NCBI GenBank assembly: GCA_027313705.1
Contig: DAHVDE010000005.1
Coordinates: forward strand, 1-64,000
DNA length: 64,000 nt
Origin: Actinomycetota bacterium
Lineage (GTDB): Bacteria; Actinomycetota; Actinomycetes; Streptosporangiales; Streptosporangiaceae
Direction: 5' to 3'
Shown piece after piece: positions 7,370 through 40,863 of the stretch. A program made the position numbers and the translations under genes. Position 1 is the first letter of the stretch. The number at the start of each line of letters is the position of its first letter. The notes under the pieces are model-generated. The model was not told the DNA's origin. It saw nothing but the letters and a program-made list of their open reading frames with translations, and searched no databases.

Positions 7370-7608
7370 GACGGCGACCAGTCACTTGCCTGCGGCAGGA
7401 CCACCGGCATCACATCTGGCCGCGAAGGCAGTTCTGCTGCCAGCCAGTCAGCCGCCTGCGGTGTCAGCACGACGACGGCGACATCGGCAGGAAGCGCCCG
7501 CCATCCGCGCAGCGCCTCGGGCTTGCCCGAGGCCGGGCATAGCAGCGCGCCTGCCAGTCCGTAGCCGAAGATGCGAAGCGGCTCCCCGATCACTGCGGCT
7601 CTCGCCAT
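7366..7608 (-). CDS. V/A-type ATPase subunit F
   Basis: This 80-residue protein resembles the small F subunit, which sits on the central rotor and modulates activity. The N-terminal strand-turn ARAAVIGEPLRIFGYGLAGA and the strand VAVVVLTPQAADWL fit the CheY-like fold of this family. At 80 residues it is shorter than the usual 100 or so, lacking part of the C-terminal helix. It overlaps subunit E by 4 bp and lies 4 bp after subunit K. Confidence 0.72.
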   Translation of the reverse strand: MARAAVIGEPLRIFGYGLAGALLCPASGKPEALRGWRALPADVAVVVLTPQAADWLAAELPSRPDVMPVVLPQASDWSPS

Positions 7609-7612
7609 CGGC

Positions 7613-8035
<423 letters not shown>

Positions 8036-8046
8036 TCACGCCTCCT

Positions 8047-15270: not shown

Positions 15271-16396
15271 CCGCTGCCTCCCCCGCGCCTTCTTCCCGCA
15301 GCGCGACCAGCGTGGCTATCTCCTCGGTGATGTCGATCCCCACCGGGCACCAGGCGATGCAGCGGCCGCAGCCGACGCAGCCCGAGCGGCCGAACTGGTC
15401 GTGCCAGGTGCCGAGCTTGTGGGTGATCCACTGCCGGTAGCGGCTCTCCCCCGAGGACCTGACGCTGCCGCCGTGCAGGTAAGAGAAATCAAGCTCGAAG
15501 CAGGACGCCCAGTGCTGCCAGCGCTCGGCGTGCTCGCCGGTCTCCCCTGAGCTGTCCCGCGTGGTTGTGCAGAAGCACGTCGGGCAGACCATCGTGCAGT
15601 TCCCGCAGGTCAGGCACCGCTCGGCCACCTGTTCCCAGGACACAGAGTCCCGGCTGGCCGCAAGCAGGCCGGCGAGGTCGACGGCGGGCATCTGGCGTCC
15701 CATCGCCGCCGCCGCGGCATCCACGGCGGCGCGAGCCGCGATCAGTTCGGCTTCCCCGGCGGCGCGGTGGCTGATCCTGGCGATCACCTGCGCGCCTGCC
15801 TCGGTGCCGGCTTCTACGACGAAGCGGTGCCCGGCCTGGTCGATCTGCTCGGTCAGCGCGAGGTCATAGCCTGGCCCAGGTCGCGGCCCGGTGCCCATCG
15901 AGGCGCAGAAGCAGACGCCGCCAGGTTCCGTGCAGCCCGCCGCGACGACGAAGAGGCCGCGGTATCGACCGCGGAAAGAACGGTCGGGCCAGGCGCCGGC
16001 GCCGAGCACGCCGGCGAGGGTGTCAATGGCCGCCAGGTCGCACGCGCGCACGCCGAGGAAGGCGAACGGCGGTTGCTGGCGGTCATCGGCCGGATGGAAG
16101 CCGTCCCTGTCCGCTGACCAGAGCTTGCGGTCAGGCGGATGCAGGAACTGCTTCCACGACTGCGGGCCTGCCGAATGGCAGAAGACCGCGCTGTCCGCCC
16201 GGCGCTTCAGCCGGTACGTGCCCGGCCCGGTCTGAACGGCCCACCCGGCCGGCAGGTCGCCGGCCGAGGTCAGCTCGGCGAGCACGATGGCCTGATCCCT
16301 GAGGGTCGGCCCGACGACACGGTAGCCGTCGCCGGCCAGCGTCGAGATGAGCTCGTCGAGGCCTGCCATGGAAAGAACCGCAGCCGGGAACGTCAC
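15263..16396 (-). CDS. Hydrogenase 4Fe-4S (beta) subunit
   Basis: This 377-residue iron-sulfur protein is like the sulfhydrogenase beta subunit. It relays electrons between the flavin subunit and the small subunit. The C-terminal third has two ferredoxin-like motifs, [16 protein letters not shown] and [15 protein letters not shown]. The N-terminal two thirds include [15 protein letters not shown] and [10 protein letters not shown], typical of this family. The first gene of the operon starts at GTG (16396) without a ribosome binding site, 36 nt after a DosR-like palindrome. An internal ATG at 16372 is an alternative start. Confidence 0.88.
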
Positions 16397-16432
16397 GGCT
16401 CACCAGCCTGGCGTACCCGGCCTGCCCTTGGC

Positions 16433-16446
16433 ATGGCCTTAGGCCC
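16433..16446 (-). promoter_or_regulatory. DosR/DevR-like box before the hydrogenase operon
   Basis: On the minus strand GGGCCTAAGGCCAT contains the symmetric core GGCCTAAGGCC. It ends 36 nt before the GTG of the beta-subunit gene, the same distance as the boxes at 2373 and 16941 have to their genes. The right half-site is degenerate, so recognition by DosR is less certain. Confidence 0.45.
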
Positions 16447-16462
16447 GCGCTATACCAGGACT

Positions 16463-16873
16463 TTAACCTGTGCGTACTCTCCGGCCGGAAACCCGCACCG
16501 GGCTGATCTTGATGAACTGATCGTGTTCGCCGCCCGGCCAGGCTTCCACGCCGAGCGACAGCGCCAGCTTCCTGTCATCGCCGTCGTCCAGGTGGCTGGC
16601 GGGGCCCTGCACAAGCACGCTCCAGCCCTCGCGGGTGGCCGGATCGAAATCGTCTACCTCGAAGGCCACCCGGTACTCGGCGTCCTTGATGCCGGTGCGC
16701 AGATCCGCGGCCGTGAGACTGTACTCAGAGGTGCGGAAGTAGATCGCGCCCTCGTGCAGCTTGTAGTTCACCGGCAGGACGGTCAGGTCGTAGCGGCCGG
16801 TGTAGGCGATCCTGCCGATGCCGCCGGGCGCGATCAGCCGCAGGCACTCGGACTCGTCCAGATGCTCAAGCAA
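16463..16873 (-). CDS. Pyridoxamine 5'-phosphate oxidase-like flavin/F420-binding protein
   Basis: This PNPOx-fold protein has about 136 residues from the chosen start. The family opening ESECLRLIAPGGIGRIAYTGRYDLTVLPVNYKLHEG is clear, followed by IYFRTSEYS and VAFEVDDFDPATREGWSVLVQG. Such split-barrel proteins bind FMN, F420 or heme. Rv0080 of the mycobacterial DosR regulon belongs to the same broad group. A TTG at 16873 follows AAAGGGGG, gives the usual N-terminus and leaves a normal divergent promoter region. An ATG at 16972 would extend it by 33 residues that do not match the family. Confidence 0.8.
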   Translation of the reverse strand: MLEHLDESECLRLIAPGGIGRIAYTGRYDLTVLPVNYKLHEGAIYFRTSEYSLTAADLRTGIKDAEYRVAFEVDDFDPATREGWSVLVQGPASHLDDGDDRKLALSLGVEAWPGGEHDQFIKISPVRVSGRRVRTG

Positions 16874-16940
16874 GGCCAGGCCCCCTTTCTGCTCCGATGT
16901 CCGGGCTGGCCGGCTTTGGGTGCGAAGGCCTCCGGCGCGC

Positions 16941-16954
16941 CGGACCTTGGTCCC
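16941..16954 (+). promoter_or_regulatory. DosR/DevR-like box before the pyruvate oxidoreductase operon
   Basis: CGGACCTTGGTCCC is a near-perfect palindrome (reverse GGGACCAAGGTCCG) with the 5-4-5 DosR layout. It ends 36 nt before the ATG at 16991, which has no ribosome binding site. It lies in the divergent region and could also act on the PNPOx-like gene. Confidence 0.65.
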
Positions 16955-16990
16955 TACGTCGGCAGCCGCCATGACAGTAGCGTCTCATGT

Positions 16991-18637
16991 ATGGCGCTGA
17001 CCGGTGCACCCAAAGACCGCGACCTGACGCCCCTGGTCGACCTGCTGCACGGGCGGGCCTTCACCGGGCCGGCCAGGGACCAGCGGCCGGTGTACGTGGA
17101 CTTGCTGCCGCCTTGCAATGCCGCCTGCCCGGCCGGGGAGAACATCCAGGCCTGGCTGGCGCACCTGCAGGCAGGCAGGCCTGAAGAAGCCTGGCGCCAG
17201 CTCACCGCGGACAATCCGATGCCCGCCGTCCACGGCCGGGTCTGCTATCACCCGTGCGAAACCGCGTGCAACCGTACCGGCCTGGACAGCGCGGTCTCGA
17301 TTCACGCGGTCGAGCGGTTTCTCGGCGACCTGGCCATCGACCGGGGCTGGCGGTTGCGCAGGCCGGCCAGCAAGACAGGCAAGCGGGTGCTCGTGATCGG
17401 CGCGGGCCCTAGCGGGCTCTCCGCCGCCAGCCACCTTGCCATGGCCGGCCACGAGGTCGAGATCAGGGACTCGGGCGGCGAGCCAGGCGGGATGATGCGG
17501 TACGGCATCCCCGCTTACCGGCTGCCCAGGGACGTTCTCGATGCCGAGATCGCAGCGATCACCGCTCTCGGCGTCGTGATCACCTGCGGGCACCGGGTCG
17601 AGGACCTGGCCGCGGAACGGCGCGACGGCCGGTTCGACGCGGTGTTCGCGGCCGTCGGCGCGCACCTGTCCAAGCGAGTCGACATCCCGGCCAAGGACGC
17701 GGGCAGGATCGTCGATGCCCTGGCCTTCCTGCACAGCGTCGCGGAAGGCGATCGGCCGGCGATCGGCAGGCGGGTCGCGGTGTACGGAGGCGGCAACACC
17801 GCGATGGACGCGGCCAGGGTGGCCAGGCGGCTCGGCGCGGACGACGCCCTGATCGTCTACCGGCGCACTCGCGCCCAGATGCCCGCTCACGCGCAAGAGG
17901 CGGAAGACGCCGAGCAAGAAGGGGTGCGCATCAACTGGCTGCGCACCATCACCGCCTTCGACGGGCCTGAGCTGACCGTCGAGGAAATGGAACTTGACGA
18001 GCACGGGTTCCCCAGGCCTACCGGCAGGCTGGAAAACCTCGCCGCCGACACCGTGATACTGGCGCTCGGCCAGGACACCGACGCCAGCTTCCTGCGCCGG
18101 GTGCCTGGCGTGGAGTTCGAGCGGGACGGAACGGTGCGGGTGTCGCCTTCGATGATGACCGGATGCGCTGGCGTCTTCGCGGGCGGCGACATGGTACCCG
18201 CCGAGCGCACCGTCACCGTCGGCACCGGCCACGGCAAGAAGGCCGCGGCCAACATCGACGCCTGGCTGCGCGGCGCCGCGCCGCCAGGGCACGACAAGCA
18301 CCCGCTGGTGGCCCTTGACCAGATGAGCCTGTGGTATTTCGGCGACGCGGCGCGACGCGAGCAGCCGCAGGTGCCAGCGCAGTGGCGCACCAGCGGCTTC
18401 GCCGAGGTGACCGGCGGGCTCACCGAGGAACATGCGGTGTACGAGGCGGGCCGCTGCCTGTCCTGCGGCAACTGCTGCGAGTGCGACGGCTGCCTGGGTG
18501 CCTGTCCCGAGGACGCCGTCATCAAGCTCGGGCCAGGGCACCGTTACCGGTTCGACTACGACCGCTGCACCGGCTGCGGAATCTGCTACGACCAGTGCCC
18601 GGTGCACTCGATCGAGATGATCACGGAGCGTGGGTAA
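16991..18637 (+). CDS. GltD/NfnB-like NAD(P)H oxidoreductase with C-terminal ferredoxin domain
   Basis: This 548-residue iron-sulfur flavoprotein is homologous to the glutamate synthase small subunit. The N-terminal cluster-binding segment has PPCNAACPAGENIQAWL and CYHPCETACNR. Two dinucleotide folds follow: RVLVIGAGPSGLSAASHLAMAG at about 138 and VAVYGGGNTAMDAARVARR at about 264. The C-terminus carries 8-iron ferredoxin motifs CLSCGNCCECDGCLGACP and CTGCGICYDQCP. No GltB is present. The gene is coupled (TAATG) to pyruvate:ferredoxin oxidoreductase, so its likely job is electron transfer between reduced ferredoxin and NAD(P). It starts without a Shine-Dalgarno sequence downstream of a DosR-like box. 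Confidence 0.88.
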   Translation: MALTGAPKDRDLTPLVDLLHGRAFTGPARDQRPVYVDLLPPCNAACPAGENIQAWLAHLQAGRPEEAWRQLTADNPMPAVHGRVCYHPCETACNRTGLDSAVSIHAVERFLGDLAIDRGWRLRRPASKTGKRVLVIGAGPSGLSAASHLAMAGHEVEIRDSGGEPGGMMRYGIPAYRLPRDVLDAEIAAITALGVVITCGHRVEDLAAERRDGRFDAVFAAVGAHLSKRVDIPAKDAGRIVDALAFLHSVAEGDRPAIGRRVAVYGGGNTAMDAARVARRLGADDALIVYRRTRAQMPAHAQEAEDAEQEGVRINWLRTITAFDGPELTVEEMELDEHGFPRPTGRLENLAADTVILALGQDTDASFLRRVPGVEFERDGTVRVSPSMMTGCAGVFAGGDMVPAERTVTVGTGHGKKAAANIDAWLRGAAPPGHDKHPLVALDQMSLWYFGDAARREQPQVPAQWRTSGFAEVTGGLTEEHAVYEAGRCLSCGNCCECDGCLGACPEDAVIKLGPGHRYRFDYDRCTGCGICYDQCPVHSIEMITERG

Positions 18638-21600
18638 TGCGAGCCGCCGTTGACGGCAACGAGGCCGCGGCCAGCGTCGCCTACCGGCTGAACGAGGTGT
18701 GCTGCATCTATCCGATCACCCCGTCATCGCCGATGGCGGAACTGGCCGATGAGTGGTCGAGCAGGAAACGGCAGAACCTGTGGGGCACCGTCCCCGTCGT
18801 GATCGAGATGCAGAGCGAGGGGGGCGCGGCCGGTGCCCTGCACGGCGCGCTCCAGGGCGGCGCGCTCGCGACCACGTTCACCGCCTCCCAGGGCCTGCTG
18901 CTGATGATCCCGAACCTGTACAAGATCGCCGGCGAGCTGACCTCGGCGGTCATCCACGTGGCGGCCCGCTCGCTGGCCGCCCAGGGGCTGTCGATCTTCG
19001 GTGACCACAGCGACGTGATGGCGGTCAGGCAGACCGGGTTCGCGCTGCTTGCCTCGGCATCGGTGCAGGAGGCGCACGACCTGGCGCTGGTCGCGCAGGC
19101 CGCCGCGCTCCGCGGCCGGGTGCCTTTCCTGCACTTCTTCGACGGGTTCCGTACCTCACACGAGCTCAATACGATCGAGTTGCTTTCCGACGACGACCTG
19201 CGCGCGCTGGTTCCCGCCGAACTCGTCCGCGCTCACCGGGCTCGCGCCCTGTCGCCTGACCACCCGTTCATCAGGGGAACCGCGCAGAACCCTGATACCT
19301 ACTTCCAGGCCCGCGAGACGGTCAATCCTTACTATTCGGCGCTTCCAGGCATCGTGGCGAGGGAGATGAACGCGCTGGCCGCCCGCACCGGCCGGAAGTA
19401 CGAACTGGTCAGCTACGCCGGCGACCCGCAAGCGGACCGGGTGATCATCTCGATGGGCTCGGCCGCGCAGACCGTCGGCGAGACCGTGCGCTACCTGTGC
19501 GGACGCGGGGAGCGGGTCGGCGCCCTTACGGTCAGGCTGTTCCGGCCATTTCCCGCGGCGGCGCTGCTCGGCGCCTTGCCGCCGTCGGTAAGCAAGATCG
19601 CCGTACTCGACCGCACCAAGGAACCGGGATCGGCTGGCGAGCCCTTGTTCCTCGACGTGACCGCCGCCCTCGCGGACAGCAGGGACTTTTCGCCGCCAGG
19701 AAGCTTTCCGCTGATCACCGGCGGGCGATACGGGCTGTCGTCGAAGGAGCTCACCCCGGCCATGGTCCTCGGCATCTTCGCCGAGCTGGCCAGGGACGTC
19801 CCGAGGCGGCGGTTCACGATCGGGATCGAAGACGACGTGACCGGCATCAGCCTGCCCTACCGGCCAGGACTCGACATCGAGCCGCCAGGCACGGTCCGCG
19901 CCGTCTTCTTCGGACTCGGCTCTGACGGCACGGTCGGCGCGAACAAGAACACGATCAAGATCCTCGGCGCCGAGCAAGACCTGCACGCCCAGGGCTATTT
20001 CGTCTACGACTCCAAGAAGTCGGGCTCGCAGACGGTCTCGCACCTGCGTTTCGGCACGGCACCGATCCTGGCGCCCTACCTGGTGGAGCAGGCCGGCTTT
20101 GTCGGCTGCCACCATTTCGGCCTGCTCGACCGGGTGGACGTGCTCGGCCGTGCCGCGCCGGGCGCAACCTTGCTGCTTGACTGCCCGGCGCCGCCTGAGG
20201 CGGTGTGGGACGCGCTGCCCCGGCCGGTCCAGGAGAAGATCATCGCCAAGCAGGTCAGCGTCTACGCCATCAACGCCAGCCAGATCGCCCGCGAGGCCGG
20301 CCTGCCAGGCCGGACCAACACCGTGCTTCAGACCTGCTTCTTCGCCATCTCGGGCGTGCTGGCGCGTGACCAGGCAATCGCGAAGATCAAGGACTCGATC
20401 ACCAGGACTTATGCCAGGCGCGGCGCCGAGGTGGTCAGGCGCAACCACGACGCCGTGGACCGCGCGCTCGACGGGCTGCACAAGATAGCGGTTCCCGGCC
20501 TGGTGACCTCGGTCAGGGAACTGCCGCCCGCCGTGCCTGCTACCGCGCCCGCGTTCGTGCGCGAGGTGACCGCGCAGATGCTGGCCGGCCGGGGCGACGA
20601 ACTGCCGGTCAGCGCGCTGCCCGCCGACGGGACCTATCCGAGCGGCACCGCCGCCTACGAGAAGCGCAACGTCAGCGACCTGGTCGCCTGCTGGGAGCCC
20701 GATCTGTGCATCCAGTGCGGCAACTGCAGCTTCGTCTGCCCGCACGCCGTGATCAGGTCGACCTACTACGACAAGGAACTGCTCGCCGGAGCCCCCGCGG
20801 GCTTCCAGTCCGCGCCTTTGGACGCGCGCGGGCTGCCAGACACCAGGTACACGCTCCAGGTGTACGCGGAGGACTGCACCGGCTGTGAACTGTGCGTGCA
20901 GGCGTGCCCGGTATCGGCGCCTGGCGGCGGCCGCAAGGCGATCAACCTGAAGGAACGGCCGCCGATCGTGGAAGCGGCCAGGGAGAACATCGCCTTCTTC
21001 GAAACCCTGCCGGTCGCCGACCGGTCCAGGGTAGATTTCGGCACGGTTCGGGGCACTCAGTTCCTCCAGCCGCTCTTCGAGTTCTCCGGCGCCTGCGCGG
21101 GCTGCGGCGAGACGCCCTACCTGAAGCTGCTCTCCCAGCTTTTCGGCGACCGGCTGCTAGTGGCCAACGCCACCGGATGCTCCTCCATCTACGGCGGCAA
21201 CCTGCCGACCACGCCGTGGACCTTCAACAGCGAAGGCCGGGGTCCTGCCTGGTCGAACTCGCTGTTCGAGGACAACGCCGAGTTCGGCCTCGGGTTCAGG
21301 CTGGCCGCCGACCGGCACGCGGAGATCGCGAGGACCAGGCTGGCCGAGCTAGGCGACCAGGTCGGCGCCGGGCTGGCCGCCGAGATCCTGGCCGCTCCGC
21401 AGCTGCGCGAGTCGGAGTTGCGTGACCAGCGTGACCGGGTCGCCGAGCTCAAGCGCCGCCTCGATGACCTGCGAGATCTCGGCCAGCCCGTGGCTGACCT
21501 GCTCAGCGTGGCCGACCATCTGGTGCGGCGGAGCGTCTGGATCGTCGGCGGTGACGGCTGGGCTTATGACATCGGGGCAGGCGGCCTGGACCACGTGCTG

Positions 21601-22218
21601 GCCAGCGGGCGGGACGTGAACGTGCTCGTGCTTGATACCGAGGTCTATTCGAACACCGGCGGGCAGGCATCCAAGGCCACGCCGCTCGGCGCGGTCGCCA
21701 AGTTCGCGGCGGCAGGCAAGACCATGCCGAAGAAGGACCTGGCGCTGCAGGCCATCGCCTACGGGTACGTCTACGTCGCCAGGGTCGCCATGGGCGCCGA
21801 CCCGCAGCAGACCCTGCGCGCGTTCCGCGAAGCCGAGGCTTACGAAGGTCCGTCGCTTGTCATCGCCTACAGCCACTGCATCGCGCACGGCATCGAGATG
21901 CGCGACGGCCTTGACCAGCAGTACCGGGCAGTGGCCAGCGGCTACTGGCCGCTGATGCGCTACGACCCCGTGCTGCGCACCCGAGGAGACAACCCGTTCC
22001 TGCTCGATTCGCGAAGGCCGCGCATCCCGCTGGCCGACTACACCGGCAGGGAGCTTAGGTACCGCGCCCTGGCCACCAGCGACCCGGCCGAAGCCGAGCG
22101 GCTCGGGCTGCTCGCGCAGCAGGCCGCCGACCAGCGCTGGGACGTCTACGAGGAGATGGCAGGGCGCGGTCCGGCCAGTTTCCAGGCCGATGCGAGGAAG
22201 GCTGGCCAGAGCCGATGA
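18637..22218 (+). CDS. nifJ: Pyruvate:ferredoxin (flavodoxin) oxidoreductase, single-chain
   Basis: This 1193-residue fused enzyme converts pyruvate + CoA + oxidised ferredoxin to acetyl-CoA + CO2 + reduced ferredoxin. The N-terminal domain I has EVCCIYPITPSSPMAE, then domains II and III (GLGSDGTVGANKNTIKIL). A 2x4Fe-4S ferredoxin domain follows (CIQCGNCSFVCPHAV, CTGCELCVQACPVSAP). The C-terminal TPP domain contains GDGWAYDIGAGGLDHVL and the Mg/TPP site NVLVLDTEVYSNTGGQASKATP. All domains and cysteines are intact. The enzyme is oxygen-sensitive and typical of anaerobes. Its ATG overlaps the upstream stop by 1 nt and its end overlaps the next gene by 4 bp, indicating one operon. Confidence 0.97.
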   Translation: MRAAVDGNEAAASVAYRLNEVCCIYPITPSSPMAELADEWSSRKRQNLWGTVPVVIEMQSEGGAAGALHGALQGGALATTFTASQGLLLMIPNLYKIAGELTSAVIHVAARSLAAQGLSIFGDHSDVMAVRQTGFALLASASVQEAHDLALVAQAAALRGRVPFLHFFDGFRTSHELNTIELLSDDDLRALVPAELVRAHRARALSPDHPFIRGTAQNPDTYFQARETVNPYYSALPGIVAREMNALAARTGRKYELVSYAGDPQADRVIISMGSAAQTVGETVRYLCGRGERVGALTVRLFRPFPAAALLGALPPSVSKIAVLDRTKEPGSAGEPLFLDVTAALADSRDFSPPGSFPLITGGRYGLSSKELTPAMVLGIFAELARDVPRRRFTIGIEDDVTGISLPYRPGLDIEPPGTVRAVFFGLGSDGTVGANKNTIKILGAEQDLHAQGYFVYDSKKSGSQTVSHLRFGTAPILAPYLVEQAGFVGCHHFGLLDRVDVLGRAAPGATLLLDCPAPPEAVWDALPRPVQEKIIAKQVSVYAINASQIAREAGLPGRTNTVLQTCFFAISGVLARDQAIAKIKDSITRTYARRGAEVVRRNHDAVDRALDGLHKIAVPGLVTSVRELPPAVPATAPAFVREVTAQMLAGRGDELPVSALPADGTYPSGTAAYEKRNVSDLVACWEPDLCIQCGNCSFVCPHAVIRSTYYDKELLAGAPAGFQSAPLDARGLPDTRYTLQVYAEDCTGCELCVQACPVSAPGGGRKAINLKERPPIVEAARENIAFFETLPVADRSRVDFGTVRGTQFLQPLFEFSGACAGCGETPYLKLLSQLFGDRLLVANATGCSSIYGGNLPTTPWTFNSEGRGPAWSNSLFEDNAEFGLGFRLAADRHAEIARTRLAELGDQVGAGLAAEILAAPQLRESELRDQRDRVAELKRRLDDLRDLGQPVADLLSVADHLVRRSVWIVGGDGWAYDIGAGGLDHVLASGRDVNVLVLDTEVYSNTGGQASKATPLGAVAKFAAAGKTMPKKDLALQAIAYGYVYVARVAMGADPQQTLRAFREAEAYEGPSLVIAYSHCIAHGIEMRDGLDQQYRAVASGYWPLMRYDPVLRTRGDNPFLLDSRRPRIPLADYTGRELRYRALATSDPAEAERLGLLAQQAADQRWDVYEEMAGRGPASFQADARKAGQSR

Positions 22219-23270: not shown

Positions 23271-24290
23271 ATGAGCGTCTTCGATTCGCCGTCCGATGTC
23301 TTGCCTGATCAGGCAAGCAGCCCAGAGGAAATCGCCAGGTTCGTCGTCGAGGCGGCGATCAACGCGCCTTCGGTCAATAACACCCAGCCATGGTGGTTTT
23401 ATGGCATTGACCGCGAGATCGGGATGCATGCCGACACCGAGCGCAGTCTGCCGGTCGCCGACCCTGACGGCAGGGAAATGATGATCAGCTGCGGCGCGGC
23501 GCTCTTCACCGCCAGGGTCGCGCTCCGCTATCTGGGGGTCGTCCCGAAGGTGCGGGTGCTGCCCGAGCAGGATCTGCCCACCCTGGTGGCCAAGATCAAC
23601 TGGTCGGAGAGCGTACCCGCGGTCGGCTACGAGCGGGAACTGTTCGCCGCGGTACCCAGGCGGCACACCCACAGAGGCGGCTTCGGCCCCGAGCCGCTCC
23701 CGGCGGGCGCGCTAGCCGCGCTGCAGATCGAAGCGGCGAAGGAAGGCGCCAAGCTCCTCGTCCTGGCCGGGGAAGATCAGCGAGACGCCCTCGCCGCCGT
23801 GGTCGAGGCAGGCGACTACGCGCTGAGGCATGACGAGGCCCGCGCCCGCGAGCAGGCTCACTGGGGCACTGGGCCAGGGAGCAGGCGACGTGACGGAGTG
23901 CCGCCGAGTGCCTACCCGGCCAGGCAGGCGAGGATCGAGCCGAACTTCCCGGCCAGGGATTTCGCGCACGGCCACGACTGGGGCCTGCCGCCGGACAGCG
24001 GCGATCATCTGGCCAGGTCAGCGGGCATCGTCACGGTGCTGACGACTAGCTCGGACCGGCCGCATGACTGGATCAGCGCCGGGCAGGCGCTGCAGCGAGT
24101 CCTGCTCTTTGCGGCCAGCAGCGGACTGGCGGCCGCCTTGCACAGCCAGCCGCTCGAGGTGCCGCAGTTGCGCGACTTCAGCAAGGTCCACCTCTGCGAC
24201 GGCGCGTACCCGCAGATGGTGCTGAGGTTCGGCGCCGCCGGCCAGACCGGGGCCAGCGTCCGCCGGCCAGTGCAGGACGTGCTGCTCTAG
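23271..24290 (+). CDS. Acg-family nitroreductase-like flavoprotein
   Basis: This 339-residue protein matches the actinobacterial Acg/Rv3131/Rv3127 group, double-length nitroreductase-fold proteins induced by DosR in mycobacteria. Seen are EIARFVVEAAINAPSVNNTQPWWF at the N-terminus, DREMMISCGAALFTARVALRYLG-like packing (GREMMISCGAAL), and AVPRRHTHRGGF. The C-terminal half has LLFAASSGLAAALHSQPLEV. Mycobacterial Acg is thought to bind FMN without reducing nitro compounds and may store flavin. It starts 48 bp after the DHODH-like gene with GAGGAG 6 nt upstream, so it probably belongs to the nifJ operon. Confidence 0.88.
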   Translation: MSVFDSPSDVLPDQASSPEEIARFVVEAAINAPSVNNTQPWWFYGIDREIGMHADTERSLPVADPDGREMMISCGAALFTARVALRYLGVVPKVRVLPEQDLPTLVAKINWSESVPAVGYERELFAAVPRRHTHRGGFGPEPLPAGALAALQIEAAKEGAKLLVLAGEDQRDALAAVVEAGDYALRHDEARAREQAHWGTGPGSRRRDGVPPSAYPARQARIEPNFPARDFAHGHDWGLPPDSGDHLARSAGIVTVLTTSSDRPHDWISAGQALQRVLLFAASSGLAAALHSQPLEVPQLRDFSKVHLCDGAYPQMVLRFGAAGQTGASVRRPVQDVLL

Positions 24291-24362: not shown

Positions 24363-24797
24363 CTATGGCACGACAACGATCGGGCACTTCGCGTGGTGCG
24401 TCACCTGGCTGCTTACCGACCCGAGCCGCAGCTTGGCGAAGCCGCCGTGGCCCCGTGCCCCCACCGCAAGCAGGTCAGCGTCGCTCGACGCCTCGATGAG
24501 TTCCCTGGCGGCCGATCCGCTGACCGCCATGACCGTGACAGGGGGAACCTCCTCGCCGGTCAGTGCCAGTTCGCTCCTGGCCTTGGCGATCGCCTCTTCC
24601 GCGACCTCGCGGGCACGGTCGAGCGAGGTCTCGTCGGCGGCCGGTGCGTGGCCGGCCGGTGCGTGGGCGGCAGGTACGTGATGACTGACTGACAGCACCG
24701 TCAGGCCCGTGCGCATCACCGTCGCCTCCCTCATTGCCCAGGTAAGTGCCTTCTGGGAGCCTTCAGACCCGTCGACTCCCACGATGATTCCCTGCAT
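24363..24797 (-). CDS. Universal stress protein (UspA family), single domain
   Basis: This 144-residue Usp domain opens with IIVGVDGSEGSQKALTWAMREA. It has the ATP-binding signature GARGHGGFAKLRLGSVSSQVTHHAKCPIVVV (G-x2-G-x9-GS). An insertion of repeated HAPAGHAPAAD-like residues sits after the second strand. ATG at 24797 has GAAGGAG 6 nt upstream. It is divergent from the GNAT–acyl-CoA synthetase gene and shares a DosR-like box with it. Several mycobacterial Usp proteins belong to the DosR regulon. Confidence 0.93.
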   Translation of the reverse strand: MQGIIVGVDGSEGSQKALTWAMREATVMRTGLTVLSVSHHVPAAHAPAGHAPAADETSLDRAREVAEEAIAKARSELALTGEEVPPVTVMAVSGSAARELIEASSDADLLAVGARGHGGFAKLRLGSVSSQVTHHAKCPIVVVP

Positions 24798-24878: not shown

Positions 24879-24892
24879 GGGCCGAAGGTCCC
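24879..24892. promoter_or_regulatory. DosR/DevR-like box in Usp–synthetase divergent region
   Basis: GGGCCGAAGGTCCC is the core of a 21-bp inverted repeat (24875–24895, GCAGGG… to …CCCTGC) with one mismatch. It is the most symmetrical of the boxes here. It lies 58 nt before the ATG at 24951 and 81 nt before the Usp ATG at 24797, so it can serve both. Confidence 0.7.
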
Positions 24893-24950: not shown

Positions 24951-27671
24951 ATGAGCCCCGCGCCCGAGCCCGAGCCCACCGGCAAGTCCGGAAAAGAACC
25001 TGACGGCTATTCCCTGCTGACCGATGGCACTTCTGTCCTGATCAGGCAGGCTCGGCCCGCGGACTTCGACGCCGTGCGCGACCTGCACCACGCGATGTCG
25101 TCCGACAATATTTACCTGCGGTTCTTCAGCATGAGCCCGGTTAGCGCGGATCGTGAGGCCCAGCGGCTGTGCCGGCCGCCTGAGCCGGGCCACGTCGCGC
25201 TGATCGCCGCGCAGGGCGACGCGGTCGTGGGCGTGGCAAGCTATGAGATGACCGGGCAGGACAAGGCAGAGGTCGCGTTCGCGGTCGCCGACGAGATGCA
25301 CGGACGAGGCGTCGCCACCTTGCTGCTCGACTATCTCGTATCGATCGCCAGGCAGCATCACGTGCGCGGGTTCACCGCCCAGGTTCTCGCCGACAACTCC
25401 GCGATGCTCAAGGTATTCGCCGACGCCGGCCTGCCGGTCCGGCGCCGCGTGGACGCCGGGGTCATCGAGATCGACATACCGCTTCCAGCCGGTGAAGCCG
25501 ATGCCAGCCTCGCCGACTACCTGGACGCGGTATCACGCAGGGAGATCGGCTCGGGCGTCGCCAGCCTCACGCACCTGCTCAGGCCGGCCAGGGTCGCGGT
25601 GATCGGCGCCAGCCGCCGCGAGGACTCGGTCGGGGCGCGGATCTTGAGCAACATCGTGAGCGCGGGCTACCAGGGAACCGTTTACCCAGTAAACCCGCAC
25701 GCTAACACCCTGCACGGCCTTACCTGCCTCAGGTCGGCGAGCGAGTTGCCGCGCGATGTCGACCTGGCGGTGGTGGCGGTGCCTGCCGATGCGGTAACGG
25801 ACGTCGCAGGGCAGTGCGGCCGCCGCGGCGTGCGCTCGCTCCTGGTCATCACCTCAGGGCTAGGCGCGGACGGCGCCCGGCTGCTTGCCACCTGCCGCAG
25901 GCACGGGATGCGGCTTGTCGGCCCTAACTGCTTCGGGCTTGCGGTTCCCGGCCTGGGACTCGACGCCACCTTCGGGCGCGATCACCTGCTGTCAGGCCGC
26001 GCAGGCCTCGCGGTGCAGTCGGGCGGAATAGGGATCTCCATCTCCGAGCACCTGTCGCGGCTTGGCATCGGCGTGTCCTCCTTCGTCTCCGTCGGCGACA
26101 AGCTCGACGTTTCCGGCAATGACCTGCTTACCTGGTGGGAGCAGGACGGGTCGACCACGCTGGCGGTCTTGTACCTGGAGTCATTCGGCAACCCGCGCAA
26201 GTTCGCCAGGAACGCGCGCCGTGTCGGCCAGCGGATGCCGGTCATGACCGTGATCGGCGGCCGGTCAGCCGCCGGGCAGCGGGCCGCCGCCTCGCACACG
26301 GCTGCGGCCGCCACCCCGCTGGTGACCAGGGAGGCGCTGTTCGGCCAGGCAGGCATCATCGTCGCCGCGAGTCTTGGTGAACTGATCGGCACCGCAGCGT
26401 TGCTGTCCTGCCAGCCGCTTCCGGCCGGAGGCAGGGTCGCGGTCGTGTCCAACGCCGGGGGCGCGGGGGTCCTGGCCGCCGACGCCTGCGGCGACAGCGG
26501 CCTTGAGCTCGCGGCATTCTCCGACCCGACGCTGCGGCGGCTGGCCGGCATCCTGCCCGCCGCCGCGACGATAGCGAACCCGCTTGACACCACGGCCGCG
26601 GTCAGCGCGAGCACCTTCCGCGCCTGCCTGGAAGCGGTCGCGGCGGACGAGTCGGTCGACGCGGTGATCAGCGTGGCGGCACCGACGGCGATGGCCGACC
26701 TGACTGGCGCGATGGGCGCCGCCTCGACCGGCAAGCCGCTCTGCGCCGTAGTACTCGACCAGCTAGAAGAGGTATGCCTGCGGCCGGAAAGGGGCAGCGC
26801 GGCCGACGGCGGGTCACCGCAGGCCACGCCAAGCTACGCCTATCCTGAGGACGCCGCGGCGGCGCTCGGGCACGCCGCCAGGTACAGCGCCTGGCGCGGC
26901 CGTCCGCAAGGCAAGGTGCCCGCGCTCGACGGCGTTCGCGGTGACGACGCGCGCGAGCTGGTAGCCGGCTTCCTGGCGGGCAGTCAGGCCGGCGGCTGGC
27001 TGCCCGCGACCCTGGTACGCGAACTGCTCGACTGCTACCAGATCCCGCAGGTCTCCACCGTCCTGGTCGGGCCGGGCAGCGAGCGTGACGTGCTCGCCGC
27101 AGCGGCGGCGCTTGCCGGGCCGGTCGTGCTCAAGGCCGAGGTGCCCGGCCTGGTGCACAAGACCGAGGCGGGTGCGGTCAAGCTCGACCTGCGCAGCCGG
27201 GACGAGGTCGCGCTCGCCTACCGCGACCTGTCGGCAAAGTTCGGCGATACGCTCGCTGGCGTGCTTGTCCAGCCGATGGCGCGCGAAGGTGCCGAGGTGC
27301 TGATCGGCGTCGCCCACGACCCGGTGTTCGGGCCACTCGTGGTGTTCGGGCTCGGCGGTGTCGCGACCGACATCCTGCACGACCACGCGGCCAGGCTCAC
27401 GCCGCTGACGGACACCGACGCCCGCGAGCTGATCCGCGGCGTGCGGGCCGCGCGGCTGCTTGACGGGTACGCAGGCCGGCCCCCCGCCGACGTCGACGCG
27501 CTCGCGGATGTCTTGCTGAGGGTCGCCAGGCTCGCCGATGACGTGCCTGAAGTGGCCGCACTCGACCTGAATCCCGTGCTCGCCCGCGCAGACGGCTGTG
27601 TCGCCGTTGACGCCCGCGTCCGGGTCTTTCCTGTCCAGCCCGCAGACCCGTACCTGCGGCAGCTTCGCTGA
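24951..27671 (+). CDS. GNAT–ADP-forming acyl-CoA synthetase fusion
   Basis: This 906-residue protein has an N-terminal GNAT acetyltransferase domain (about 20–175; ADEMHGRGVATLLLDYLV is the acetyl-CoA loop). A CoA-binding Rossmann domain (about 205–295), succinyl-CoA-synthetase-like domains (about 300–480) and a C-terminal ATP-grasp domain (about 680–900) follow. The phosphohistidine position is kept: SHTAA with H449. Two roles are possible: ATP-forming conversion of acetyl-CoA to acetate, or protein lysine acetylation as in Pat enzymes. The retained His favours, but does not prove, the first. Beside pyruvate:ferredoxin oxidoreductase it would yield ATP from acetyl-CoA. There is no clear ribosome binding site. 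Confidence 0.9.
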   Translation: MSPAPEPEPTGKSGKEPDGYSLLTDGTSVLIRQARPADFDAVRDLHHAMSSDNIYLRFFSMSPVSADREAQRLCRPPEPGHVALIAAQGDAVVGVASYEMTGQDKAEVAFAVADEMHGRGVATLLLDYLVSIARQHHVRGFTAQVLADNSAMLKVFADAGLPVRRRVDAGVIEIDIPLPAGEADASLADYLDAVSRREIGSGVASLTHLLRPARVAVIGASRREDSVGARILSNIVSAGYQGTVYPVNPHANTLHGLTCLRSASELPRDVDLAVVAVPADAVTDVAGQCGRRGVRSLLVITSGLGADGARLLATCRRHGMRLVGPNCFGLAVPGLGLDATFGRDHLLSGRAGLAVQSGGIGISISEHLSRLGIGVSSFVSVGDKLDVSGNDLLTWWEQDGSTTLAVLYLESFGNPRKFARNARRVGQRMPVMTVIGGRSAAGQRAAASHTAAAATPLVTREALFGQAGIIVAASLGELIGTAALLSCQPLPAGGRVAVVSNAGGAGVLAADACGDSGLELAAFSDPTLRRLAGILPAAATIANPLDTTAAVSASTFRACLEAVAADESVDAVISVAAPTAMADLTGAMGAASTGKPLCAVVLDQLEEVCLRPERGSAADGGSPQATPSYAYPEDAAAALGHAARYSAWRGRPQGKVPALDGVRGDDARELVAGFLAGSQAGGWLPATLVRELLDCYQIPQVSTVLVGPGSERDVLAAAAALAGPVVLKAEVPGLVHKTEAGAVKLDLRSRDEVALAYRDLSAKFGDTLAGVLVQPMAREGAEVLIGVAHDPVFGPLVVFGLGGVATDILHDHAARLTPLTDTDARELIRGVRAARLLDGYAGRPPADVDALADVLLRVARLADDVPEVAALDLNPVLARADGCVAVDARVRVFPVQPADPYLRQLR

Positions 27672-27707: not shown

Positions 27708-28202
27708 ATGTCCGGTACCAATGGCAGTAATTTCCGGCGCATCGTCGTCGGGGTGGATGGATCGCCGTCGTCGCAGGCCGCGCTGAGCTGGGCCATCGGG
27801 CAAGCGGAGCTGACCGGCGACACGGTACTTGCCGTCGCCGCCTGGGAGTACCCGATTGCGGCAGGCGGCTACGGCTGGGGGCCTGTCGTCATGGCGCAGG
27901 ACCTGGACATGGAATCGGTCACCAGGAAGTCCCTGGCCGATGCCGTCGCCCGCGCGCGGCCCGCCGGCAGCCAGGTAACGGTAGAAGAGCAGGTGACTGA
28001 GGGCTACCCGCCGAGCGTGCTGATCGACGCGTCGGCCAGGGCCGACCTGCTTGTCGTGGGCAGCAGGGGGCACGGGACGTTCGCCGACGCCCTGCTCGGA
28101 TCGGTCAGCCAGCACTGCGCGCACCACGCGAAGTGCCCGGTGGTAATCGTGCGCGCCAGGCCAGGCGATCAGCAGGTTCAAAGGACGAGCAGCCCTGGTT
28201 AA
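27708..28202 (+). CDS. Universal stress protein (UspA family)
   Basis: This 164-residue single Usp domain opens with RRIVVGVDGSPSSQAALSWAIGQA. It has the nucleotide-binding signature GSRGHGTFADALLGSVSQHCAHHAKCPVVIV. The middle segment (AAWEYPIAAGGYGWGPVVMAQD) is the type found in actinobacterial tandem Usp proteins. ATG at 27708 is preceded by AAAGGA. The gap to the synthetase gene is 36 bp, so cotranscription with it is likely. Confidence 0.93.
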   Translation: MSGTNGSNFRRIVVGVDGSPSSQAALSWAIGQAELTGDTVLAVAAWEYPIAAGGYGWGPVVMAQDLDMESVTRKSLADAVARARPAGSQVTVEEQVTEGYPPSVLIDASARADLLVVGSRGHGTFADALLGSVSQHCAHHAKCPVVIVRARPGDQQVQRTSSPG

Positions 28203-28222: not shown

Positions 28223-28257
28223 CATTGCCCGAGCCAGAGCGCACAGAAGGAGGAGGC

Positions 28258-28695
28258 ATGGCCGGAATAGTCGTAGGCGTCGATCAGTCGGTGCACGCGC
28301 ACCGCGTCCTTGACTGGGCGATGCGGGAGGCCGCCGTCAGGGGAACCACCTTGACCGTGCTCTCCGTCATCCCTGCCATGGCCAGTCCGTGGACCGGGCA
28401 CGCGCTGACCGTGCCCGATGCCGGCCATGCCATCGCGCAGGCACGTGAGGTGACGGAGGAGGCACTCGCCAAGTCGGCGGGCAGGCTCGGCGAGCTGCAG
28501 CCGTCCTCAGTCACCGTCAGAGCCTTCACCGGCTTCCCTGCGCAGGCGCTGGTTGACGCCTCCCGCGACGCTGACCTGCTCGTGGTGGGATCGCGCGGCT
28601 CAGGCGGCTTCGGCGAGCTTCTGCTCGGCTCGGTCGCCAGCCAGGTGTCTCATCACGCGAACTGCCCGGTAGTGATCGTGCCCTCTGGGCGCTAG
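28258..28695 (+). CDS. Universal stress protein (UspA family)
   Basis: This 145-residue Usp domain starts AGIVVGVDQSVHAHRVLDWAMREA and has the ATP motif GSRGSGGFGELLLGSVASQVSHHANCPVVIV. It is most like the Usp at 24363, with which it shares the spacer arrangement (a Pro/His-rich middle). This suggests duplication. ATG at 28258 directly follows a strong GGAGGAGG. It lies 14 bp before dosR. Confidence 0.93.
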   Translation: MAGIVVGVDQSVHAHRVLDWAMREAAVRGTTLTVLSVIPAMASPWTGHALTVPDAGHAIAQAREVTEEALAKSAGRLGELQPSSVTVRAFTGFPAQALVDASRDADLLVVGSRGSGGFGELLLGSVASQVSHHANCPVVIVPSGR

Positions 28696-28709: not shown

Positions 28710-29381
28710 ATGAGTACTACCCCCATCAAGGTGTTCTTGCTCGATGACCATGAGATCGTCCGCCGCGGCGTGCGCGAGCTGCTCGAGGCGGAAGAAGACA
28801 TCGAAGTCATCGGCGAGGCGGGCACAGCGGAATCGGCGCTGGCCAGGATCCCCGCCCTGCGGCCGGATGTCGCGGTGCTTGACGTCCGGCTGCCCGACGG
28901 CGACGGGGTCAGCGTGTGCCGTGACATCCGGTCGAAGATGCCCGAGGTGGCCTGTCTCATGCTGACCTCGTTCGGCGACGACGAGGCGCTATTCGACGCG
29001 ATCATGGCCGGCGCGTCAGGCTACGTGCTCAAGCAGATCCGCGGCATCGACCTGGTCGGCGCGGTACGATCGGTCGCCGCAGGCGCCTCGCTGCTCGACC
29101 CGCAGGCCGCCAGCCGGGTGATGCGGCGGATGCGGGACCAGGCTGCCAGGGCCGACCCGCTGGCAGGCCTGACCCCGCAGGAAAGGCGCATCCTCGAGCT
29201 CATCGGCGACGGGCTGACCAACCGGCAGATCGGCGAGCGGATGTTCCTCGCCGAGAAGACGGTGAAAAACTACGTGTCAGCGCTGTTCGCCAAGCTCGGC
29301 ATGGAACGGCGCACCCAGGCGGCCGCCTACGCCGTCCGCGTGCTCGGCGAAAGCGAGCACGGCAGGGAACCTCATCTCTAG
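28710..29381 (+). CDS. dosR: DosR/DevR-type response regulator
   Basis: This 223-residue NarL/LuxR-family regulator closely resembles mycobacterial DosR over its full length. The receiver domain has acidic residues D12–D13, phospho-acceptor D58 ([16 protein letters not shown]), T86 and K108. The C-terminal HTH contains [23 protein letters not shown] followed by [12 protein letters not shown]. The recognition-helix core EKTVKNYVS is the same as I recall for DosR. It probably senses oxygen or NO status through a heme histidine kinase, but no kinase gene is present in this window. It follows the Usp gene by 14 bp with AAGGAAAA before ATG, and is probably transcribed with the regulon genes it controls. 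Confidence 0.92.
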
Positions 29382-38067: not shown

Positions 38068-40863
38068 ATGGATGGTGTGATGCACAAGACGGTGCTGATC
38101 ATTCTGGCAGCTGTGGTTGCCTTGATTGTGATCGTCGTCTTGCTTGGAATGCGATTCCTGCGGGCGGACGACGAGGACGACTTCGAAGAGGGCACGGCCG
38201 AGCAAGGGCACTTCCGCGGTCACGGTGATCACCCGTCGCGTGATCACTCGCGTTTCCGGCACCACGATGATGGCGCGGGATCATCGCGGTCTCGTGACGA
38301 CTACGATGACTCGATGCCGGCGCCGAGCCGGACGGCAGCCTCTCGCGACGGTTCAGGCAGAAGCAGGAGCTCAGGCGTTAGCGGAACTGGCGCCAGCGGA
38401 GCAGGCAGGGGCGAGGACGCCAGAGACCGGGCCGGCCGGGACGGCGCGGGCCGAGGGAGCAGGAACAGCACCAGCCGGGATGGGGCGGCCGCGACCAGGC
38501 CGGGCACCGGGCGCGGCAGTGTCTCGCGCGATGGCGGCCGGCCTGGCGGATCTGAGTTCGAGGATCCAGGCGGAGTGGCCGCACGCGGTTCGCTGCCGGC
38601 TCGTGATGAGACAGTGCGGATGACTGCCAGCCGCGGCGCGAGCCGGAGCGGCGGCGGCCGGGACAGTCTCAGCCGGGACAGTCTCAGCCGCGACGGCCTC
38701 GGTCGCGACGCTTCACGCCGTGATGAGACCGACAGGGACGCAAGGGACTCCCTGCCCGGCAGGGAAAGCCCGGGCAGGGACAGTACTTCGCCAGGTACCC
38801 AAGGGCGCGGTAGCCGGTCGCTGACTGGCCAGGATGCCGCGCGGGTGAGCGGACGTGACGGCAGGGCCGCTGATCGTGGCTGGGATGAGTTCGGGTCAGG
38901 CAGCCGTGAGGACCGCGGCAGGAACTCGGGACCGCACCGCCGTGTCGCAGGGACGCGTGACTACGAAGACGAGGACAAGGACTTCGACGGTCCTGACTTC
39001 GAGGCCAGCGACTTCGACAGTGGCGGTCATCGGCTTGATGACCAGGAAGAAAGAATCACGCGAACGCGCGGCAGAAGCGGCAAGGACCGGTCACCAGGGG
39101 CGACCAGGGACGAGGCGCCTACCGGACAGCAGGACAAGGAACGCCGCGGCAACACGGGGCCGAACGCCAGGCCGGACAGCAGAAAAGGTCCGTCAGGGTC
39201 TGGCAAGCGCGAGGAACCGTTGCCAGATGTCAAGCCGCGGGCCGGCCGGAGCAAGCGTGACGATGATGGCGAGTGGCCGAGCACGGAGTGGGACGAACTC
39301 TCTGACGTCGACTACTGGGCCGAGCTTGCTTCAGAAAAGCCGCTGACCACGACGCTTCAGGCCGTCGCCCCTGCCGAGCGGCCAGAGCGGGACCGGCCAG
39401 AGCGGGACCGGCCAGATGCGCGCGACACCGACGCTGGTTCCAAGCGCGCCGAGCGGCGCGAGACCTCAGATCGCCGGGACGCCAGCGACCGCCGGGGAAG
39501 CAGCGACCGCCGGGATTCTCGTGATGCCGCCGACCGGAGGTCGGGTACCGAACGGGCGGGTACCGAACGGCGGCCGGGTATCGAGCGGCGTGAGGACGCT
39601 GACCAGCGCGACAGTGCGGATCGCCGCGAGAGCGGTGCCGAGCGCCGGGCAAAGCCGCTCGCGCCGGCGGCCAGGAGTTCGCGGCCAGCCCAGGACCGCG
39701 CCTTCTCGGCGGCCGCGAGCGGAACGGCCGAGGCCGGATACGGCAGCCGCGGCGACACGTACGGCCCCGCGGAGCAACGTCGGCCGGCCGCATCGGGAAG
39801 CGATGCGCTGCGGACGGCGCCCGCCGCGAGAGCTGCGGCAGGGGCGGCCCGACCGCTCGACGATGACCCGTTGACTAGTCCGTCCTTCCCGCGGATCACC
39901 GATGACGGCCGGTCGTACCGGCGCGGCCGCGGCGAAGCGGTCAGCGGTGCCAGGTCTCCGAGCGGCCAGTTCGGAAACGGCGACGAAGACTATGGCGCGC
40001 TTCCGCCTGCGCTGCCACTCGCGAGTACCGACAGCCAGGCGACCGCGGCCTACGCCAGGCCAGCGCGCGGTACGGCGGAGTACGCCGCAGCTCCGGCCGA
40101 GCCCTATCAGCCGCAGAACACGCCAGCGGAAAGCCGGCATCTAGGCGGCGCGTCAGCCAGTTACCCACCACCTTCGGTACCTGACGGCGGGTATCTGCCT
40201 CCCGGCGGGCTCAGCTACCACCGAGAGCCGGCCAGCGGCGGATACCAGGTGTCACAACCGGCTCCTGATTACCGTCAGGAGCTTTCCGCCCCGGCTGCCT
40301 ACGGCACTCATGAGCGGCCGGCCTACAACTACCCGACAGGCCAGGAGGACAGCAGATACCCGGCCGCTCCGGTCACCTCGGGGTACGCGGCGGCGAGCTT
40401 GCCGAGCTACCCTGGCGGGCCGGCCGATCAGCCCGGATACACGGACTACAGTGCCGCTGCCGGCCAGGGCTCGCCTGCGCCAGCGCCGGCGAGCGGGTAT
40501 TCTTACGCGCAGGAACCGGCCGTGAATTACCAGCAGTACCAGGTCCCTGGTCCGGCCGATGCGAGCATGCCCTATTCTTCCCACGACGTGCTTCCTGGCT
40601 ACTCCCCTACCCAGTACACCGCGCAATACGAGCCAACCGGATACCCGGCACCTGGCTACGAGCCCGAGGACGGCTACCCGGCCGACCCTTATGCGGTTGA
40701 TCCTTACGGCTACCCCGGCTACGGAACGGGTCAGTTATCCGGGCATTTCCCGGCAGATCAGCCGCGCTTACCTGACCAGGAACGGGACGCGCCGAACTGG
40801 CAGGCGCAGTCCTGGGATGACCAGTTACCCCAAGGTTCCCGGCTGCCGGACGACCCGGCTTAG
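38068..40863 (+). CDS. Large disordered protein with N-terminal membrane anchor
   Basis: This 931-residue protein has one TM helix at about 8–28 (TVLIILAAVVALIVIVVLLGM). The rest is low-complexity. Residues about 30–560 are a highly charged Arg/Asp/Ser region with many imperfect repeats such as RDSLSRDGLGRD, ERDRPERDRPD and DRRDSRDAADRR. Residues about 560–931 are Pro/Tyr/Gly/Ala-rich with recurring GY-x-PA patterns. Similar architectures occur near division and wall-growth genes in Streptosporangiales and Streptomyces, but no named family is recognised. The mixture of charge-block and Tyr/Pro-rich segments would suit condensate or scaffold behaviour; that is an inference. Confidence 0.75.
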   Translation: MDGVMHKTVLIILAAVVALIVIVVLLGMRFLRADDEDDFEEGTAEQGHFRGHGDHPSRDHSRFRHHDDGAGSSRSRDDYDDSMPAPSRTAASRDGSGRSRSSGVSGTGASGAGRGEDARDRAGRDGAGRGSRNSTSRDGAAATRPGTGRGSVSRDGGRPGGSEFEDPGGVAARGSLPARDETVRMTASRGASRSGGGRDSLSRDSLSRDGLGRDASRRDETDRDARDSLPGRESPGRDSTSPGTQGRGSRSLTGQDAARVSGRDGRAADRGWDEFGSGSREDRGRNSGPHRRVAGTRDYEDEDKDFDGPDFEASDFDSGGHRLDDQEERITRTRGRSGKDRSPGATRDEAPTGQQDKERRGNTGPNARPDSRKGPSGSGKREEPLPDVKPRAGRSKRDDDGEWPSTEWDELSDVDYWAELASEKPLTTTLQAVAPAERPERDRPERDRPDARDTDAGSKRAERRETSDRRDASDRRGSSDRRDSRDAADRRSGTERAGTERRPGIERREDADQRDSADRRESGAERRAKPLAPAARSSRPAQDRAFSAAASGTAEAGYGSRGDTYGPAEQRRPAASGSDALRTAPAARAAAGAARPLDDDPLTSPSFPRITDDGRSYRRGRGEAVSGARSPSGQFGNGDEDYGALPPALPLASTDSQATAAYARPARGTAEYAAAPAEPYQPQNTPAESRHLGGASASYPPPSVPDGGYLPPGGLSYHREPASGGYQVSQPAPDYRQELSAPAAYGTHERPAYNYPTGQEDSRYPAAPVTSGYAAASLPSYPGGPADQPGYTDYSAAAGQGSPAPAPASGYSYAQEPAVNYQQYQVPGPADASMPYSSHDVLPGYSPTQYTAQYEPTGYPAPGYEPEDGYPADPYAVDPYGYPGYGTGQLSGHFPADQPRLPDQERDAPNWQAQSWDDQLPQGSRLPDDPA

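Follow-up and report, generated by a model that had tools for sequence, protein, structure and literature searches.

A GNAT–acyl-CoA synthetase fusion with a complete set of predicted catalytic residues in a DosR/OsdR-type neighborhood of an actinobacterium

Fusions of a GNAT acetyltransferase with an NDP-forming acyl-CoA synthetase are known mostly as lysine acetyltransferases (KATs), and one encoded on contig DAHVDE010000005.1 of a soil bacterium of the Streptosporangiaceae (Actinomycetota) raises the question of whether its synthetase half still works as an enzyme. The gene lies in a 64,000-nucleotide stretch, hereafter the window, which we analyzed as a whole. In type II KATs (class I-alpha) the GNAT domain is N-terminal and the synthetase follows it (PMC6456759, PMC8556138), and the accessible text of one review describes the synthetase of such proteins, SlPatA of Streptomyces lividans for example, as inactive, with the catalytic histidine absent (PMC8556138). 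The window protein has this architecture, but it carries the histidine (H449) together with nine further active-site residues. A sequence-only reading had proposed that it could both make ATP from acetyl-CoA and acetylate proteins. Drawing on its architecture, residue set, conservation across its group, regulator box and gene neighborhood, all read from sequence, we favor with moderate confidence a catalytically intact ADP-forming acyl-CoA synthetase (ACD), probably for acetyl-CoA, joined to a lysine acetyltransferase and belonging to a DosR/OsdR-controlled dormancy or hypoxia regulon.

The open reading frame is complete from ATG to stop, and its Pfam domains (GNAT, CoA_binding_2, Succ_CoA_lig, Ligase_CoA_2 and ATP-grasp_5, in that order; Table 1) all match above cut-off, Acetyltransf_7 excepted. 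As judged by these domains, the 906-residue product is an N-terminal GNAT followed by a full-length ACD, with subdomains 1, 2 and 5, the ATP-grasp domain, the swinging-loop histidine, the relay histidine and the power-helix glycines all in place. A sequence search of the PDB ranks Nmar_0206 (8wzu) highest, followed by the Nmar 3HP-CoA synthetase, E. coli PatZ and Korarchaeum ACD1, and the best solved matches of the GNAT domain are protein acetyltransferases, SlPatA (4nxy) and Pat of Mycobacterium tuberculosis (Mtb; 4ava, E 8e-13).

The solved relatives allow the active site to be mapped. In Nmar_0206, H535 receives phosphate from ATP and hands it to H256 of the swinging loop, and G163, A164, G310 and G311 at the two power helices bind a sulfate, as stated in the accessible text on 8wzu (PMC11494057). 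A MAFFT alignment of 92 rows places H256 on H449 of the window protein, in the loop RAAASHTAAA, H535 on H736, G163/A164 on G358/G359 and G310/G311 on G503/G504, whereas E. coli PatZ (9it0) has N, H, A/A and A/A at the respective positions. The retention of the phosphohistidine in the SHTAA motif, which the sequence-only reading had claimed, is thereby borne out, and the ATP-grasp domain that it had called complete-looking has K728, H736, K737, N874 and D887. Nor did alignment with Pat proteins and archaeal ACDs bring to light another missing catalytic residue, the finding that reading had named as telling against it: on a panel of ten residues (G358, E410, H449, G503, G504, K728, H736, K737, N874 and D887) the window protein scores 10/10, as does Nmar_0206, and PatZ scores 5/10. 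From succinyl-CoA synthetase and ACD work, we take N874 and D887 to be metal-type ligands and K728 the ATP lysine, and we assign E410 its role on the same grounds. An AlphaFold2 model computed from 12 sequences (pLDDT 76.6, pTM 0.77) falls below pLDDT 50 at residues 446–454 around H449, as expected of a mobile loop. Compared with solved structures by VIA-align 2, the model matches Korarchaeum ACD1 (4ybz; Z 41.2, 435 residues, root-mean-square deviation 2.1 Å), Nmar_0206 (8wzu; Z 41.1, 596 residues, 5.3 Å) and PatZ (9it0; Z 36.4, 672 residues, 5.5 Å); these matches establish the fold and not the function.

Some match to the window protein occurs in all 61 genomes of the host family that were searched. 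These matches split into A1, which is window-like, A2, a second group that looks intact, and B, which is degraded and present in most genomes. The window's own group consists of clade A1 and a class-wide hold-out, namely the 20 best class-wide matches, fetched afterwards. Of its 48 full-length proteins, 44 score 10/10 despite a mutual identity of only about one half; the exceptions score 8 (L049), 6 (L051), 3 (L044_4651) and 9 (L130, cut by a contig end), and L130 is the only one of the 20 hold-out proteins below 10/10. Because few columns are this conserved (15% of 670 columns reach at least 95% conservation, vs 8 of the 10 panel columns; hypergeometric p 7e-6), such retention is not a matter of chance. 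By sequence, then, the window protein is one of a widespread intact subfamily and not an isolated retention.

Group B, with about 40 proteins, scores 3–6 of 10, and a further B-like protein (L149) scores 7. The power-helix GG has become DS or DA, N874 is D in 35/40 and D887 is G in 31/40, and H736 is mostly replaced or deleted. A histidine nevertheless stands at the H449 column of this alignment in 37/40, within a shortened GHA loop, so the change is better called loss of the whole relay. H449 alone was rejected for this reason as a discriminator of intact from degraded proteins, and the panel was used in its place. SlPatA can be assigned through L153, a B protein from a Streptomyces-type genome whose GNAT matches the S. 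lividans PAT crystal sequence 4nxy end to end (1e-110). L153 averages 52% identity to B and 39–40% to A1 and A2, has the panel string GEHESKHREG (5/10; its sister L152 has GEHESKHRED, 6/10), and lies inside the degraded clade (support 100), with the window protein outside. On this sequence evidence SlPatA is a member of group B, and the published view of an inactive synthetase appears to hold in outcome for B, not for A1. The NCBI name of a Tsukamurella B protein, ‘bifunctional GNAT family N-acetyltransferase/acetate--CoA ligase family protein’, is an annotation by architecture.

By a hand count across the class, 25 of 296 genomes carry a match with 45% identity or more that covers 80% or more of the query; a few are A2 and not A1. 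Within the host family, 14 genomes have A1 only, 39 B only, 7 both and 1 neither (Fisher p 7e-8, from hand counts that enter L086 as degraded despite its unsure placement and ignore the kinship of genomes, several of them incomplete). That A1 and B rarely coexist hints that A1 could take over the Pat role. Three intact group members (L095–L097; NZ_CP081497, NZ_CP109481 and NZ_CP108290) are plasmid-borne in Streptomyces and Kitasatospora, the plasmids being large and linear, and the module may thus move between strains. One genome (G032) has three GNAT-ACD genes in tandem (L044, 594-10621): the ACD is intact in two of them, one of which has a changed GNAT motif, and degraded in the third, whose GNAT motif is intact.

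In a first tree, from which five partial proteins were dropped, long branches grouped together and the basal order of A1, A2 and B did not resolve. A second, built under a mixture model from 46 chosen rows with the panel and loop columns removed and the decayed A1 paralogues left out, was rooted on intact enzymes; NMAR6 and L003 are still long branches in it. There the degraded ACDs fall together in a single clade (support 100), with a single change of state, and the intact proteins include GNAT-free outgroups and several lineages. Given the single degraded clade, the fusion ancestor was probably intact and the SlPatA-type ACD derived from it by one decay, the simplest course that these sequences allow. 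Decay has also occurred within A1. Five paralogues (L002, L087, L102, L103 and L105) have lost 37–72 residues ending at window residue 774–778 and have kept the GNAT motif; L002 is the host's own second copy, its ATP-grasp segment gone and its GNAT kept. L051 and L044_4651 lost panel residues without that deletion. Similar in-frame losses in the ATP-grasp segment (window residues about 703–778) are found in six B proteins (L075, L076, L077, L079, L084 and L085), and from the alignment the losses in A1 and B look independent. When H449 is counted only if T or S comes next and H736 only if K or R does, 38 proteins have both, 41 have neither and the other cells hold 4 and 4; the two characters change 8 and 10 times on the tree.

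Upstream of the gene, between it and a divergent universal stress protein (USP) gene, lies a palindrome, GGGCCGAAGGTCCC, that agrees with the OsdR consensus AGGGCCGATCGGCCCT, as given in the accessible text of the OsdR study (PMC5069765). The exact box precedes 20 of 51 group genes and none of 40 degraded genes. It is found in 10/31 upstream regions of A1 (shuffles: mean 0.64, maximum 3 in 200), two of the ten boxed genes, L107 (from Streptomyces albus) and L108, being near-copies, and in 10/20 hold-out genes as against 0/20 of the next matches; three A1 rows were dropped from these counts where the match starts after residue 30 or the upstream DNA is shorter than 250 nt. Seven control patterns (spacer, half-site, permuted) occur 0–3 times per set, and the shuffles allow for the difference in upstream GC (B 65% vs 72%). 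The window gene thus belongs to a group that bears DosR/OsdR-type boxes, an enrichment that holds across genes and not from the window alone.

In the window, the gene is accompanied by three USPs, a response regulator, a nitroreductase-family protein, a DHOD-like protein and a pyruvate:ferredoxin oxidoreductase (PFOR). A USP, DosR, nitroreductase or PFOR relative lies within 3.5 kb at 19/28 A1 loci, 1/5 A2 loci and 1/29 B loci, not counting the window or any locus whose flanks are short. Genes close to other members of the group encode CBS-BON, cyclic-nucleotide-binding, pyridoxamine-oxidase, flavodoxin and PPDK proteins as well as a GAF-HisKA_3 sensor kinase; at L038 and L041 a phosphoketolase and then an acetate kinase follow directly downstream, and a phosphoketolase adjoins L087, L125 and L128 too. 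Clustering of neighbors by all-against-all BLAST gave useful A-only families, plus antisense-frame artefacts of GC-rich genes. AcuC, which stands beside the degraded type in Tsukamurella, was considered as a general neighbor of the degraded type and rejected, being found at 2/29 degraded loci. The regulator at 28710..29381 we take to be a DosR/OsdR orthologue, from its likeness to Mtb DosR and with no named database match. It has the Mtb DosR K182 peptide almost unchanged, the residue that Mtb Rv0998 is described as acetylating (PMC5861037); Pat of M. smegmatis is described as acetylating a USP (PMC6640162). These targets of the mycobacterial Pats (Rv0998/MSMEG_5458) match the gene types adjoining the window gene, and by analogy one may guess that the window GNAT acetylates the neighboring DosR and USPs. 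With two Acs over cut-off and one sirtuin (G000:C115:193160), the host has the usual acetylation circuit available.

What, then, would the fusion do? Activity, its direction, acetate as the substrate and the acetylation targets are what we infer. At low oxygen, PFOR would supply acetyl-CoA, from which, together with ADP and phosphate, the ACD half would form ATP, acetate and CoA; phosphate would pass onto H449, the loop would swing to the ATP-grasp site, and H736 would relay the phosphate to ADP. Substrate-level phosphorylation from acetyl-CoA by ACD is known from archaea and Entamoeba. The GNAT half would draw on the same acetyl-CoA pool to acetylate lysines, its likely targets being AMP-forming Acs, stress proteins and the DosR encoded alongside; acetylation of Acs would stop a reactivation of acetate that would cost the ATP just made. 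The PFOR/DosR/USP setting and the phosphoketolase–acetate kinase pairs in relatives fit the link between fermentation flux and regulation that the sequence-only reading had drawn. Of its dual role, the retention of all tested catalytic residues and this setting stand; its reliance on H449 as the distinguishing feature and on an isolated retention does not. We go further only tentatively, to a possibility that we regard as rather doubtful: that one polypeptide combines substrate-level phosphorylation from acetyl-CoA with acetylation of DosR, stress proteins and Acs in or near the regulon, so that acetyl-CoA/ATP status feeds back on the hypoxia response, and that it is a living intermediate ancestral to the ‘dead-synthetase’ SlPatA type, a decay repeated in A1 paralogues by the same ATP-grasp deletion.

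Several results weigh against an active, box-controlled acetyl-CoA synthetase. The core GGGMCNNNNGKCCC has a single exact occurrence in the window, where chance gives a mean of 1.41, so that by itself the window box does not stand out from chance in 64 kb; the half-site control reaches 3/31 and 3/20; 31 of 51 group genes have no exact box, and neither do intact members outside A1 (L132, L138, L142 and 7/8 A2, of which eight rows were counted, L044_7892 and L086 lying outside the clade as cut). The window protein stays below the NCBIfam equivalog cut-offs (TIGR02717, acetate-CoA ligase alpha, 388 bits vs 567; NF045494, 397 vs 1200), and acetate as the substrate is therefore an assumption; these scores weaken membership in those acetate-CoA ligase models, not acetate-CoA-ligase-like working. 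An acetate kinase on the host's same contig (G000:C46:94806-95729) means that ACD is not the sole possible route to acetate. The absence of acetate kinase had been considered as an argument for ACD and was dropped, that enzyme being present in 54/61 family genomes, the host's included. Co-loss of H449 and H736 is not significant in an independent-pairs test on the first tree (5 pairs the same way, 0 opposite, p 0.0625). Finally, judging by their sequences, the A1 paralogues that lack the ATP-grasp segment and keep the GNAT are cases in which the fusion persists without synthesis.

This last point, that the fusion can work without catalysis where the ATP-grasp segment has repeatedly decayed and the GNAT is kept, speaks for an ACD half that is a sensor only, as reported for PatZ/SePat: it would bind acetyl-CoA, and perhaps also ATP, phosphorylation of H449 then serving as an energy signal, and would tune the GNAT with no net turnover. 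Reviews, as far as their accessible text goes, regard the ACD domains of types I and II as regulatory modules that bind acetyl-CoA and are inactive (PMC8556138). We think it somewhat unlikely here, since sensor-type relatives lost exactly those residues that the window protein keeps, and a plain binding domain leaves unexplained why the relay histidine, N874 and D887 persist in 44/48 proteins that are about half identical. Less probable still is an ACD that runs in the acyl-CoA-forming direction, from acid, ATP and CoA, and feeds its own GNAT for lysine acylation in cis (acetyl, propionyl or other). ACDs are reversible, and no model cut-off fixes the substrate. Nmar_0206 (8wzu) is described as running in the forming direction (PMC11494057). 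The neighborhood, however, gives acetyl-CoA or acetyl phosphate (PFOR, phosphoketolase, acetate kinase), which favors ATP formation, and two Acs already activate acetate. It would be very surprising if only the synthetase half mattered and the GNAT acted on a small molecule or were vestigial: E107 is D in a few group members and the tandem homologue in L044 (the gene at 7892) lacks the AE motif, yet the closest solved GNATs acetylate proteins, and fusions with a decayed ACD still retain the P-loop and E107.

Table 1. Features of the window in and around the fusion gene.
Feature	Position	Strand	Basis
GNAT-ACD fusion gene, 906 aa	24951..27671	+	ORF, Pfam domains, solved relatives, fold comparison
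GNAT acetyltransferase domain, residues 29-160	25035..25430	+	Pfam; phmmer to S. lividans PatA GNAT 4nxy, E 4e-18
Candidate GNAT base E107	25269-25271	+	E in 43/48, D in 5/48 full-length group members
GNAT P-loop region HGRGVA	residues 117-122	+	G120 is G in 47/48 full-length group members
CoA-binding domain, ACD subdomain 1, residues 214-331	25590..25943	+	Pfam
ACD subdomain 2, residues 349-485, with first power-helix Gly358 and E410	25995..26405	+	Pfam; mapping on 8wzu
Swinging loop, residues 440-456, with predicted phosphohistidine H449 (26295-26297)	26268..26318	+	aligned to Nmar_0206 H256
ACD subdomain 5, ligase-CoA, residues 496-574 matched	26436..26672	+	Pfam; alignment
Second power helix G503-G504	26457-26462	+	alignment to Nmar_0206
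ATP-grasp domain, residues 680-892 (K728, H736, K737, N874, D887)	26988..27626	+	Pfam E 9e-67
Predicted second phosphohistidine H736	27156-27158	+	aligned to Nmar_0206 H535
OsdR/DosR-type palindrome, 58 nt 5' of the ATG	24879..24892	.	consensus match
Divergent universal stress protein	24363..24797	-	PF00582 E 4e-27
Universal stress protein directly 3' of the fusion gene	27708..28202	+	PF00582 E 5e-31
Second downstream universal stress protein	28225..28695	+	PF00582 E 1e-30
DosR/OsdR-type response regulator	28710..29381	+	PF00072 and PF00196
PFOR, acetyl-CoA source; true start probably internal	18331..22218	+	POR_N, POR, EKR, TPP_enzyme_C, Fer4
Nitroreductase-family protein	23271..24290	+	PF00881

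Other genes of the window lie farther from the fusion. Directly before the PFOR gene is an NAD(P) oxidoreductase with DPYD-type Fer4_20 and Fer4 domains (16139-18637, +), a possible electron acceptor for PFOR ferredoxin. Near the hypoxia island, genes at 3692-9636 (-) encode subunits of a V/A-type ATPase, namely a V_ATPase_I subunit and two ATP-synt_ab subunits that have the V/A C-terminal domain, and a NiFe-hydrogenase large-subunit-like protein (PF00374) is encoded at 11925-13466 (-). On the other side are a molybdenum dehydrogenase-like protein, its 2Fe-2S small subunit fused to the MoCo subunit (40897-43446, +), and a 931-residue open frame with no Pfam match at 1e-5 that may not be a gene (38068-40863, +).

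Set beside known systems, the fusion shares with SlPatA the domain order and the GNAT fold (4nxy/4u5y), and differs in its full panel, OsdR box and dormancy neighbors. With Korarchaeum ACD1 and the 4-hydroxybutyryl-CoA synthetase Nmar_0206 it has in common the ACD fold, both phosphohistidines and the ATP-site residues, and with Nmar_0206 also the subdomain order 1-2-5-4/3; unlike them it has an N-terminal GNAT, and identity in the structural alignments is 31–37%. E. coli PatZ and Salmonella Pat (type I) likewise carry GNAT and ACD on one chain, but in reversed order, and PatZ has H for N874 besides its changes at H449 and the power helices. Mycobacterial Pat has a related GNAT and a cAMP-binding domain in place of the ACD. 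The box, USPs, nitroreductase, DosR-type regulator, GAF kinase and PPDK near group members are those of the OsdR/DevR (DosR) dormancy regulon, though the regulon table for S. coelicolor, in the accessible text, has no GNAT-ACD gene that we could find (PMC5069765). In the open-access literature, searched below full-text level, we found no report of an intact type II synthetase.

The intact A1 group contradicts the review's general statement on inactive type II synthetases and defines a clear set of intact proteins, and it suggests working enzymes as the origin of regulatory ACD domains like that of SlPatA. If active, the fusion would unite energy conservation and protein acetylation in a single enzyme controlled by a DosR-type dormancy switch, and it would do so in Streptomyces, Kitasatospora and Streptosporangiaceae, bacteria usually regarded as aerobes.

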